Below are positions 52,844 through 56,282 of a stretch of 64,000 bases of DNA, piece after piece. Under the pieces are notes generated by a model, which worked only from the letters and a program-made list of their open reading frames with translations, was not told the origin of the DNA and searched no databases. The stretch comes from Mesohalobacter halotolerans (GTDB lineage Bacteria > Bacteroidota > Bacteroidia > Flavobacteriales > Flavobacteriaceae): assembly GCF_006120725.1 (NCBI RefSeq), contig NZ_SWMU01000004.1:1-64000 (forward strand), given 5' to 3'. Every line of letters starts with the position of its first letter. Within the stretch, counting starts at the first letter, position 1. A program made the position numbers and the translations under genes.

Positions 52844-54130
52844 ATGACTGCTAAAATTGAATTTGACGGAAAACAATACGAATTACCTGTAACTGTTGGT
52901 ACAGAAAATGAACACGGTATAGACATCTCTAGTTTAAGAAGTGCTTCAGGGGGTTTGATTACCTTAGATAGAGGTTTTAAAAACACGGGATCTTGCGAAA
53001 GTGCAATTACATTCTTAAATGGTGAACAGGGTATTTTGCGTTATCGTGGATATTCAATTGAAGACTTAGCAGAAAATGCCAGCTTTCTTGAAGTGGCGTA
53101 TTTATTAATTTTTGGAGAATTACCCTCTCAACAAGAGCTTGATAAATTTCACCAAGATATCAAAGACGAATCTTATGTTGATGAAGAAATGAAAAAAATT
53201 CTCGATGGATTCCCACGCTCTGCACATCCTATGGGCGTTGTGTCATCGCTGACAAGTGCTTTAATTGCATTCAATCCCTCATCTGTAGATGTGAGTTCTG
53301 AAGAAGATATGTACAAATCTATAGTCAAAATACTTGCCAAATTTCCTGTGCTATGTGCTTGGGCCTTGAGAAAACGAACAGGACAACCATTAGACTATGG
53401 AGATAGCTCTTTAGGATATGTAGAAAATATCCTTAAAATGATGTTTAAAAAGGCAAACGAAGATTATAAGATAAATCCTGTGGTAGCATCGGCTTTAAAT
53501 AAACTTTTAATACTTCACGCCGACCATGAGCAAAACTGCTCTGCTTCTACAGTAAGAATTGTTGGTTCGTCACACGCCGGGTTATTCGTTTCTATTTCTG
53601 CTGGAGTTGCAGCCTTATGGGGACCACTACACGGCGGTGCAAACCAGGCAGTGATTGAAATGCTAGAGGGCATCAAAGAAGATGGTGGTGACTCTAAAAA
53701 ATACATGCAAAAAGCAAAGGATAAAGAAGACCCATTCAGGTTAATGGGCTTTGGACACCGCGTTTACAAAAACTTTGACCCAAGAGCAAAAATCATTAAA
53801 AAATCTGCTGATGAAGTTTTAGGCGATTTAGGAATTGAAGACCCTGTCCTTGATATTGCTAAAGGATTAGAAAAAGAAGCTCTTGAAGATGATTATTTTG
53901 TCAAGCGAAAGTTATATCCAAATGTTGACTTCTACTCAGGTATAATTTATAGAGCACTTGGTATCCCTACTGAAATGTTTACCGTTATGTTTGCCTTAGG
54001 TAGACTTCCAGGCTGGATTGCTCAATGGAGAGAAATGCGCCTCATGAAAGAACCTATTGGAAGACCAAGACAAATTTATACCGGTGAAAACCATAGGCCA
54101 TATGTAGACATTGATGAAAGACATAACTAA
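52844..54130 (+). CDS. gltA: Citrate synthase
   Basis: Condenses acetyl-CoA and oxaloacetate, entering the TCA cycle. 428 residues, normal for the type II enzyme: TAKIEFDGKQYELPVTVGTE, GILRYRGYSIEDLAENASF, LILHADHEQNCSASTVRIVG, active-site His in HGGANQAV and FGHRVYKNFDPRAKII, and the Asp/Arg in DFYSGIIYRALGIPTEMF. An azurin gene follows after 17 bases, so they may be co-transcribed. Confidence 0.98.
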   Translation: MTAKIEFDGKQYELPVTVGTENEHGIDISSLRSASGGLITLDRGFKNTGSCESAITFLNGEQGILRYRGYSIEDLAENASFLEVAYLLIFGELPSQQELDKFHQDIKDESYVDEEMKKILDGFPRSAHPMGVVSSLTSALIAFNPSSVDVSSEEDMYKSIVKILAKFPVLCAWALRKRTGQPLDYGDSSLGYVENILKMMFKKANEDYKINPVVASALNKLLILHADHEQNCSASTVRIVGSSHAGLFVSISAGVAALWGPLHGGANQAVIEMLEGIKEDGGDSKKYMQKAKDKEDPFRLMGFGHRVYKNFDPRAKIIKKSADEVLGDLGIEDPVLDIAKGLEKEALEDDYFVKRKLYPNVDFYSGIIYRALGIPTEMFTVMFALGRLPGWIAQWREMRLMKEPIGRPRQIYTGENHRPYVDIDERHN

Positions 54131-54147
54131 AAATAAAAAACCTACTT

Positions 54148-54660
54148 ATGAAATTGAGTAATATTTCTTTTTTGTTGTTACTTTTAATAGTAACCTCTTG
54201 TGGCAATTCTACAGATGATAAAAAAGAAGAGAAACAATCTATAAAAATTAATCAACCTACATCTGAACAACAAGAAGCAGAAGATGGCGTAACAGAAATT
54301 CTATTAACAGGCAATGATCAAATGCGTTTTAACTTAAAACAAATTAAAGTCAAAGCTGGAGATAAGGTCAAATTGACGTTAAAACATATAGGAGAACTCG
54401 ATGTAAACGTTATGGGTCATAACTTTGTTTTACTTGAACCAGAGACAAATATCAACGATTTTGCCTCACGTGCAGTAGCCGCAAAAGATAACGATTACAT
54501 TCCTGAAAATACTGAAAATGTTATTGTGCATACAAAAATGATTGGTGGTGGCGAACAAACCTCTATTACATTTGATGCACCCAAAAAAGGAGTGTATGAT
54601 TTTATATGTAGTTTCCCGGGTCATGTAGCTTTAATGCAAGGAAAATTTATTGTTGAATAG
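54148..54660 (+). CDS. Azurin-like blue copper lipoprotein
   Basis: 170 residues. Signal with lipobox VTSC (Cys18), a short acidic linker, then an azurin domain: DQMRFNLKQIKVKAGDKVKL, and type 1 copper ligands His91 (VMGHNFVL), Cys154 (FICSFPGHVALMQGK), His159 and Met163, all present. Likely carries electrons in the periplasm or at the outer membrane. Located 17 bases after gltA on the same strand. Confidence 0.94.
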   Translation: MKLSNISFLLLLLIVTSCGNSTDDKKEEKQSIKINQPTSEQQEAEDGVTEILLTGNDQMRFNLKQIKVKAGDKVKLTLKHIGELDVNVMGHNFVLLEPETNINDFASRAVAAKDNDYIPENTENVIVHTKMIGGGEQTSITFDAPKKGVYDFICSFPGHVALMQGKFIVE

Positions 54661-54678
54661 TTTTCAACTCCCACAGTC

Positions 54679-54804
54679 CATCTGAACTTGTTTCAAATTT
54701 CATTTTTTCAATCAATCTGAACTCGTTTCAAATTAGATTTTCTTTGTCAATCTGAACTTGTTTCAGATTACATTTAACCTGTCAATCTGAACTTGTTTCA
54801 GATT
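54679..54804. repeat. Four tandem palindromes with an exact 35-bp period
   Basis: The 21-base element AATCTGAACTTGTTTCAGATT, with arms AATCTGAA/TTCAGATT, recurs at 54679, 54714, 54749 and 54784, each followed by a different 14-base spacer. The two right-hand copies are perfect palindromes; the two left-hand ones carry TTCAAATT. Similar dispersed elements are common in flavobacterial genomes; this array sits between azurin and the symporter and ends just before that gene's promoter. Confidence 0.85.
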
Positions 54805-54825
54805 CCTATTTTATCCCTAAATTTG
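54793..54825 (+). promoter_or_regulatory. Promoter of the sodium:solute symporter gene
   Basis: TAAATTTG (54818-54825) is a perfect TAnnTTTG; a TTG (54793-54795) lies 22 bases upstream inside the last palindromic repeat. The ATG at 54843 is 17 bases downstream. Confidence 0.5.
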
Positions 54826-54842
54826 TCCACATAATTTTATAG

Positions 54843-56282
54843 ATGCTGAGTCCTACATTTATTTTACTCCTCATTGCAGGATATTTTGTTGTTTTAATTG
54901 GTATTTCTTTTTTAACTAATAAAACTGGGAGCAACGCCGAATTTTTTAAAGCTAACAATAAGTCACCTTGGTATCTGGTGGCTTTTGGCATGATAGGTGC
55001 ATCACTCAGCGGCATTACTTTTATCTCTATTCCAGGAACGGTAGAATTTTCAGCATTTAGCTATTTTCAAGTGGTTCTGGGCTATACTATTGGTTATGCC
55101 GTCATCAGTCTGGTGTTGATGCCTTTATATTACCGATTGAATTTGACTTCAATTTACACCTATCTCGACCAGCGCTTTGGATTTTACGCTTATAAAACAG
55201 GAGCGTCATTTTTTCTACTATCACGTATTGTTGGTGCAAGTTTTAGATTGTTTTTAGTCGCTGGCGTGTTGCAATTAATTGTCTTTGATAGTTTAGGCGT
55301 GCCGTTTTATGTCACGGTAACTATCACTATCCTGTTGATATGGGTTTACACGTTTAAAAGCGGGATTAAAACCATTGTTTGGACAGACAGTTTACAAACT
55401 TTGTTTATGTTATTGGCGTTAGGGGTTTCCATCGTTTTTTTATTGCAAAATTTCGATATTTCAGTCGGTGATATTCCCGCATATTTGAGTGAAAATACCC
55501 AAGCCAAAATTTTCTTTTTTGAAGATTGGCGTTCTTCTGATTTCTTTTTTAAACAATTTTTATCCGGTGCATTTATCGCTATCGTCATGACAGGGCTAGA
55601 CCAAGATATGATGCAAAAAAATCTAACCTGTAAAAATCTAAAAGATGCTCAAAAGAATATATTTTCGTTTACCATTATTTTGACCGTGGTCAACTTTTTA
55701 TTTTTATTTCTAGGCTTATTATTAACAAATTATGCCAATAATAATGGTATCAGTGCGCAAAAAGATGACTTGTTTCCTGCCATTGCCATGCAAGGTGAAT
55801 TAGGTATTGCAGTAGCTGTTTTCTTTTTATTAGGTCTCATAGCAGCAGCCTACTCAAGCGCAGATAGTGCATTAACTTCACTAACAACCTCTTTTAGCAT
55901 TGATATTTTAGATATTGAAAACAGATATCCAAAGCATAAACAAGTTAAAATCAGAAAGTTAACGCATGTTGCAATTTCATTAATTTTAATTCTTGTAATG
56001 TTAATTTTTCAATATGCCATAAGCGACAAAAGTGTCATTAATAAGTTGTTTGAGTTTGCAGGCTATACCTACGGACCGCTTTTAGGGCTATATGCTTTTG
56101 GCATGTTTACCTCAACAAAAATCAAAGACAAATTAGTGCCTCTGGTTGCAATTCTCTCCCCTATTTTATCTTATACAATTAGTGTGAATGCTTTAAGCTG
56201 GTTTGGTTTTGAATTTGGTTTTTTCATTTTAATTTTAAATGGTTTATTGACTTTTTTAGGGCTCATACTGATTCGTCGATAA
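54843..56282 (+). CDS. Sodium:solute symporter family protein
   Basis: 479 residues with about 13 hydrophobic helices of the SSS family, inner membrane. Seen: LIAGYFVVLIGISFLTNKTG in TM1, GASLSGITFISIPGTVEFSA, VLGYTIGYAVISLVLMPLYY, TGLDQDMMQKNLTCKNLKDA, and GLIAAAYSSADSALTSLTTS, the family signature near TM8. Substrate not predictable: sugar, nucleoside or amino acid members look alike. Convergent with the CoA-binding gene and overlapping it by 27 bases. Confidence 0.92.
   Translation: MLSPTFILLLIAGYFVVLIGISFLTNKTGSNAEFFKANNKSPWYLVAFGMIGASLSGITFISIPGTVEFSAFSYFQVVLGYTIGYAVISLVLMPLYYRLNLTSIYTYLDQRFGFYAYKTGASFFLLSRIVGASFRLFLVAGVLQLIVFDSLGVPFYVTVTITILLIWVYTFKSGIKTIVWTDSLQTLFMLLALGVSIVFLLQNFDISVGDIPAYLSENTQAKIFFFEDWRSSDFFFKQFLSGAFIAIVMTGLDQDMMQKNLTCKNLKDAQKNIFSFTIILTVVNFLFLFLGLLLTNYANNNGISAQKDDLFPAIAMQGELGIAVAVFFLLGLIAAAYSSADSALTSLTTSFSIDILDIENRYPKHKQVKIRKLTHVAISLILILVMLIFQYAISDKSVINKLFEFAGYTYGPLLGLYAFGMFTSTKIKDKLVPLVAILSPILSYTISVNALSWFGFEFGFFILILNGLLTFLGLILIRR

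Follow-up and report, generated by a model that had tools for sequence, protein, structure and literature searches.

The 182-base stretch between a cupredoxin-like lipoprotein gene and a sodium:solute symporter gene of Mesohalobacter halotolerans carries four copies of a small tagged palindrome, arranged head to tail with an exact period of 35 bp. The array was probably formed by local head-to-tail amplification of a TGTC-tagged REP, without acquiring a dedicated role in the regulation of the symporter gene. A single REP would first have inserted in the 3' part of the cupredoxin transcription unit; slippage or unequal recombination, probably aided by the hairpin, would then have duplicated it together with adjacent DNA as a unit of 35 bp. 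The window referred to below is the whole stretch of DNA analysed, 64,000 nucleotides in length.

Organisation of the array

The tandem array extends from position 54676 to 54815 on the + strand. The two flanking genes lie on the same strand and encode a 170-residue cupredoxin-like protein (54148 to 54660; Pfam PF00127, E 6e-19), whose lipoprotein signal was recognised by eye, and a 479-residue symporter (54843 to 56282; PF00474, E 1e-18). TRF finds 4.0 copies with a period of 35 and a score of 173, the highest of its five rows for the window. The 21-mers start at 54679, 54714, 54749 and 54784 and are separated by three 14-nt spacers, all different, in agreement with a previous sequence-only reading of this DNA.

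The two copies on the 3' side are perfect, whereas those on the 5' side have decayed. Copy 3 (54745 to 54772, + strand) has a TGTC tag, an 8-bp stem and a CTTGT loop, and scores 44.9 bits with R1, a covariance model built from 20 aligned copies of the same genome; copy 4 (54780 to 54807, + strand) scores 45.0 bits. Copy 1 (54675 to 54702, + strand; 35.2 bits) starts at the 15th base past the cupredoxin stop codon, has the tag AGTC and retains 6 of 8 stem pairs. Copy 2 (54710 to 54737, + strand; 34.1 bits) has the tag AATC and 7 of 8 stem pairs. Counted over the 25 nt of tag and hairpin, the four copies depart in order from the perfect unit by 3, 4, 0 and 0 letters, so that the earlier claim of decay from right to left holds for the division into perfect right and decayed left copies but not for a smooth gradient. 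The predicted folding energies are -0.4 kcal/mol for each of copies 1 and 2, -6.7 kcal/mol for copy 3 and -6.5 kcal/mol for copy 4; the last two were equalled by 0 and 3 of 200 shuffles, respectively. The broken stems of copies 1 and 2 indicate that hairpins are not being maintained there.

The 15-nt core has ten matches with up to three mismatches in the window, against a mean of 3.07 in 100 shuffles, one of which also reached ten; the matches with fewer than three mismatches are the four array copies only. The exact 21-mer recurs elsewhere in the genome, at C5:110710 and C1:759334, and is thus not restricted to the window.

The repeat unit and its class

In the 20 aligned copies the unit consists of a TGTC tag followed by an 8-bp stem and a 5-nt loop. 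The second, third and fourth letters of the tag (G, T and C) are each conserved in at least 90% of the copies and the loop length in all 20. Pairing is found in 95% of the 160 stem cells, and 16 cells have changed on both sides; neither figure was reached in 500 shuffles, although two of five covariation measures stayed at shuffle level (pairs with both-side changes, 93 of 500; further pair types, 156 of 500). If one arm is displaced by one, two or three columns, pairing falls to 21-54%. The first stem pair is A-U in 17 of the 20 copies, the second AU in nine, UA in six, CG in four and another pair in one, and the 3' tails are varied (CTA, CTC or CTT, ACA, and others).

R1 gave at least 26 matches at 11 places in the M. 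halotolerans genome at E 0.1; 20 of these are the model's own seeds and six are new. The copies are scattered singly and in both orientations. Counting this genome, at least 19 of 40 genomes were positive at E 0.01 and at least 53 of 120 family genomes, one per genus, at E 0.001, these counts being lower bounds with at most 150 or 62 of thousands of first-look candidates scored per genome. The suggestion that related palindromes form a dispersed flavobacterial family is borne out by this distribution.

The main text of Di Nocera, De Gregorio and Rocco (2013; PMC3733652) describes CGTC-tagged REPs as having an unpaired CGTC, TGTC or CCTC tag at one end, a stem of 8-9 bp, a loop of 4-5 nt and a 3-nt tail, mostly CCA. 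They are dispersed and extragenic, often lie near 3' ends, have no associated transposase or dedicated enzyme, and include Gramella forsetii of the Flavobacteriaceae among their named carriers. The tag, stem and loop of the window unit match this description, and on its sequence the unit is a TGTC-tagged REP of the CGTC/TGTC superfamily. Family 2 (8-bp stem, 5-nt loop) is the nearest by description. Also shared, as far as that text goes, are the intergenic position, often between convergent genes, and the lack of a Y1 transposase. The window unit differs in that its inner stem is mostly CTGAA, while the short tail and the second stem pair agree only in part.

Two other systems are comparable, so far as the papers' main texts describe them. 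The BIMEs and GTAG REPs with RAYT transposases (PMC2817692) likewise have small tagged hairpins, clusters, head-to-tail modules and an adjoining gene for a DNA-cutting enzyme. However, BIME modules contain inverted REP pairs, which the window array lacks, and GTAG REPs carry the tag GTAG and a Y1 transposase, in place of which are found here TGTC and, at other places in the genome, a GIY-YIG nuclease. Neisseria dRS3 (CGTC-1), placed in the same superfamily in PMC3733652, is also clustered, but its clusters are interleaved with other repeat families, whereas here the tandems are of unit plus spacer.

A RAYT-associated GTAG REP was considered and rejected: the tag is TGTC, and no Y1_Tnp gene was found in the M. 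halotolerans genome. In 27 genomes of the genus 61 Y1_Tnp matches are listed; the 44 stretches sampled, two of them overlapping, cover 46 of these and have no copy at E 0.05. Nor does Y1_Tnp follow copy number, as G018 has seven Y1_Tnp matches and no R1 match, against at least 26 copies and no Y1 in M. halotolerans. The Y1_Tnp-like matches of G003, G019, G010, G013 and G018 lie within open frames of 929-1282 aa, far above the size of ordinary IS200 transposases.

A search of Rfam gave a single match at E 1, below the gathering score and outside the array (54161 to 54234). The exact 24-mer occurs in two IMG/VR stretches and a broader form in 14, with no 35-bp arrays seen in these repeat-bearing stretches. 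One IMG/VR contig encoding a portal-like protein, so read by eye, has a CGTC-tagged copy with the same 24-mer beside an inverted copy (L314 7336-7470, L315).

Head-to-tail arrangement

According to the main text of PMC3733652, HH dimers predominate in the CGTC-REP class, head-to-tail (HT) dimers are negligible and clusters are rare, a rule that is stated there as an organisational tendency and not as part of a structural definition. In M. halotolerans the HT arrangement is recurrent. Among 14 neighbouring pairs no more than 200 bp apart, 11 are HT, two have their tags inward and one has them outward. An HT spacing of 35-36 bp is found at five places: the window array, C5:110675, C1:759298, C4:89611 and C4:487980. 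Over all loci the spacings are 20, 23, 24, 35, 36, 37 and 50. The strict tandem is unusual, as had been proposed, since HT pairs of the exact core occur in only two of 299 family genomes, M. halotolerans included. A looser search, for a full copy followed by a tag plus left arm, was positive in six of the 71 repeat-bearing genomes, five of the six belonging to this genus; in G001 and G158 the second unit is no more than a half. The literature searched contained nothing on arrays of this kind, and the papers matched by the core sequences are unrelated by title.

The spacers of three unlinked loci in the genome are alike in sum, only one of 2000 shuffles being as good, in a test on seven spacers at three loci chosen by eye. 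By locus pair the values are 0.011 (C6-C4), 0.0055 (C4-C5) and 0.29 (C6-C5). Judged from these partly shared spacers, some arrays may have a common origin and not have been born on the spot. If the founding duplications were random, varied spacing would be expected, and the recurrence of 35-36 bp at five places counts against this.

A dense cluster in G010 (C1:1016489-1017508; L200 990-2009) contains 50-bp, 36-bp and spacer-free 24-bp HT units around a GIY-YIG gene.

Changes of length at orthologous sites

The gene order around the window array is conserved in G010 and G013. The gap between the cupredoxin and symporter genes holds four copies in M. halotolerans, two in G013 and none in G010. 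The G013 copies keep the spacing of 35 and have an identical right end (the 28 letters of copy 4). Neither of the two outcomes that would have spoken against the earlier reading, a 21-mer confined to this array or a spacing lost in relatives, was observed. On the 3' side of infB there are two copies in M. halotolerans as against four in G013. The array on the 3' side of ribD comprises, in M. halotolerans, two full copies at a spacing of 36 together with two half units; in G013, three full copies at 37, again with two halves; and in G010, a single full copy with seven half units of 20 nt. The names infB and ribD come from translations read by eye. Orthologous arrays thus differ by whole units, as compared between species by their sequences, and amplification, one of three roles or origins offered by the sequence-only reading, is the best interpretation of these differences.

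Recent tandem duplication leaves identical units behind, and such units are found in G010, at 50 bp, and as half units of 20 and 23 nt in G010 and G239, respectively.

Between the cupredoxin and symporter genes there is one extra small ORF in G013 and there are two in G010, with none in the window (window 54661-54675; L129 2081-2425; L211 2295-3382). The missing ORFs suggest that a deletion with one end at the array may have occurred in the window.

Growth of the arrays

The amplification could be sharpened, without being opposed, by a polar mode of growth. A polymerase copying towards the hairpin would stall inside it, slip back by one unit and recopy, so that new whole or half units (tag plus left arm) would appear beside the terminal complete hairpin while older ones were pushed off and decayed. 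This is a possibility that we regard as rather unlikely. The ribD half units of G010 have, from 5' to 3', 4, 4, 0, 0, 0, 0 and 0 mismatches from GTCAATCTGAACCCAAACTT and are followed by the complete hairpin, and in G239, of another genus, three variant half units of 23 nt precede five identical ones and then one complete hairpin. The window array is likewise intact on its 3' side. However, among the 71 repeat-bearing genomes the order is half-then-full at four loci (the orthologous ribD sites of M. halotolerans and G010, G001 C1:464035 and G013 C29) and full-then-half at two (G001 C23 and G158 C17, among the 18 rows of the looser search). The half-then-full search of the 71 R1-positive genomes gave seven rows, the other three being spacer-free pairs of full copies. 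In addition, G307 has its half unit on the 3' side, and bit scores do not rise steadily along C4:89611-89746 of M. halotolerans or along C57 of G013. Polarity as a rule was rejected, four loci against two being too few to set a direction, and growth beside the hairpin is a lead and not a result.

The exact two-half pattern occurs in two of 27 genomes of the genus, and a search of 397 family genomes for three half units found four. In G239 (L285 1433-1640) and G010 (L039 1362-1530), runs of 5' halves of 23 and 20 nt, respectively, lead to one complete hairpin, with a C/A-rich filler ending in AACTTGTCA. The finds in G307, G054 and G331 (L284, L282 and L283) are of mixed or other forms with a related core; they show a second repeat type, with the core CTGAGCG..AGTCGAAG or CTGAGCTTGTCGAAG, that has comparable partial units. 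The partial-unit pattern may extend beyond one REP family.

Alternative explanations

Among the readings that compete with amplification, the strongest is that the array is a transcript 3'-end element, its hairpins slowing the decay of the cupredoxin mRNA from its 3' end or stopping read-through into the symporter gene, but this is unlikely. The position of copy 1 shortly behind the cupredoxin stop codon would suit such a function. Seven of nine other copy-bearing places, the C4:488 kb cluster being outside this count, lie between convergent genes as judged from mechanical ORFs, and in G010 a terminator-like hairpin of -14.2 kcal/mol stands where the array would be. The predicted fold of the whole gap has a z of -2.07 and is better than in 195 of 200 shuffles, the other five being as good. 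Nevertheless, no terminator-like site (a GC-rich stem followed by a T run) was found in 54100-54900, and two of the four hairpins barely fold. The transcript stabilisation envisaged by the sequence-only reading is not favoured by these predictions.

Other copies do lie inside terminator-like inverted repeats, 13 of 71 scored blocks being at or above 99% of a null of 416 pairings with swapped flanks; at least two pairs among the 13 are apparently orthologous. The test took in 75 loci, namely those of the M. halotolerans genome, two others and 60 picked by hand among the matches listed; one locus without a recognised copy and three at contig edges were left out. Eleven blocks score above the highest null pairing (L028, L033, L036, L015, L038, L232, L234, L224, L229, L269 and L270). 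In such places REPs, single or paired, occupy the loop of the inverted repeat, as in AAAGCTGTCTCAAAAC...GTTTTGAGACAGCTTT. The window array is not so placed (L013, score 7.5), and the idea that it was inserted inside a terminator was rejected, there being no such inverted repeat around it.

It is improbable that the arrays were inserted as concatemers, whereby an enzyme, conceivably the repeat-bracketed GIY-YIG nuclease described below, would move a unit of about 35 nt, made up of hairpin and spacer, and multimers would integrate. Equal spacing at five places and partly shared spacers would be accounted for, but not the spacings of 20, 23, 24, 37 and 50 at other loci. The results for Y1_Tnp given above, both for the M. 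halotolerans genome and for the sampled stretches of the genus, also argue against it.

The array reaches the symporter promoter region. The octamer TAAATTTG (54818 to 54825, + strand) agrees with TAnnTTTG, the consensus of the flavobacterial -7 box given in PMC9723704; it is conserved in both G013 and G010, and the symporter ATG is at 54843. Copy 4 supplies a TTG (54793 to 54795, + strand), 22 nt before TAAATTTG, just as had been noticed earlier. This TTG, a possible upstream promoter element judged by its sequence, is present in G013 and lacking in G010. That a regulator of this promoter uses the palindromes as binding sites is nonetheless highly improbable. The strict period and the end of the last copy, only 10 nt before the -7-like box, are what such sites might show. 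On the other side, copies 1 and 2 have decayed, G010 has no copies, and no core (up to two mismatches) lies within 1500 nt upstream of any of the 74 homologous symporter genes, out of 80, for which the scan was correctly placed. Unrelated genes have the same element behind them. The proposal of protein binding fares poorly also in its geometry: spacing varies by locus from 20 to 50, and 35 bp is 3.33 helical turns at 10.5 bp, which is no whole number. The overlap of this possible promoter element with copy 4 appears incidental and the array seems to have no dedicated part in symporter regulation.

A degenerate CRISPR array is most improbable, for in spite of the short palindromic repeat and regular spacing, the spacers between the 21-mers are only 14 nt long and partly resemble each other, and copies are scattered singly in both orientations.

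GIY-YIG nuclease genes among the repeats

Short GIY-YIG genes are associated with these REPs. The product of an ORF of about 112 aa lying between copies in clusters has a GIY-YIG domain (PF01541; E 7e-16 to 1e-16 for three tested). The M. halotolerans gene (C4:488057-488401; L206 6058-6402) is within the largest REP cluster of the genome. In tblastn searches such a gene lies beside REPs at eight of 80 places in the genus (in M. halotolerans, G010, G001, G021, G024, G004, G011 and G023), whereas the 69 stretches of the genus retrieved for unrelated purposes contain none (Fisher p 0.006). In other genera it was found at four (G156, G102, G069 and G129) of 40 REP places, chosen almost in their listed order. 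When pooled, 12 of 120 REP places have the gene versus three of 149 control stretches (p 0.005); the stretches compared are non-independent, the M. halotolerans and G010 sites being orthologous and G001, G021 and in part G024 sharing flanking genes, and they are of unequal length. The gene is absent from the remaining 72 of 80 and 36 of 40 places, and from the 18-kb REP cluster of G026.

Inverted copies with their tags outward bracket ten of the 12 REP-adjacent genes. In the genus, the 3' end of all eight genes coincides with, or is closely followed by, an R1 copy on the opposite strand, and the 5' end of seven is closely preceded by one on the same strand (L206, L210, L215, L346, L362, L373 and L385, with L384 having no 5' copy). 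In other genera both bracketing copies are present at three of four genes (L419, L399 and L406, the last a fragment of 69 aa), while the fourth, L408, is unbracketed. G331 (L283) shows this layout too, its repeats having a different core. The genes on either side are not the same in G004, G011, G023 and the site shared by M. halotolerans and G010, showing that the unit of GIY-YIG gene and REPs occurs at several places. In G013 (L335; C96:11700-15400) this last site retains four REP copies and flanks of 84-88% identity but lacks the gene.

L371 has a further GIY-YIG match, weaker than the first and some 1.5 kb away from the closest copy. Among 80 symporter stretches from other taxa, three contain weaker GIY-YIG genes, in each case without a tagged hairpin in the surrounding 250 nt, and none of the 16 repeat-bearing IMG/VR stretches has a GIY-YIG gene.

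From the arrangement of these sequences we infer that the nuclease may move or multiply REPs, the window array included. As a whole, the reading that the short GIY-YIG nuclease serves C/TGTC-tagged REPs as their dedicated enzyme, in the way that RAYT serves GTAG REPs, is put forward as a tentative one. The complete element would then be the gene between two inverted REPs with tags outward; REP pairs with tags outward would be internally deleted forms and single REPs remnants; and tandem arrays like the one in the window would be driven by cuts that the nuclease makes at REPs. The gene is bracketed by copies at some places here, whereas the main text of PMC3733652 does not contain the term "GIY". 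No literature on GIY-YIG with REPs was found, the one paper containing both words, PMC9465073, being unrelated as far as its available text goes.

Implications

The arrays at the cupredoxin-symporter, infB and ribD sites, which differ by whole units between sister species, are a place to watch array growth, and array length could serve as a strain marker in this genus. How C/TGTC-tagged REPs spread without a transposase is a question left by the 2013 paper (PMC3733652), to judge from its main text. A nuclease gene that recurs between inverted copies, in several genera and at several sites, is a concrete candidate for the enzyme of these REPs.
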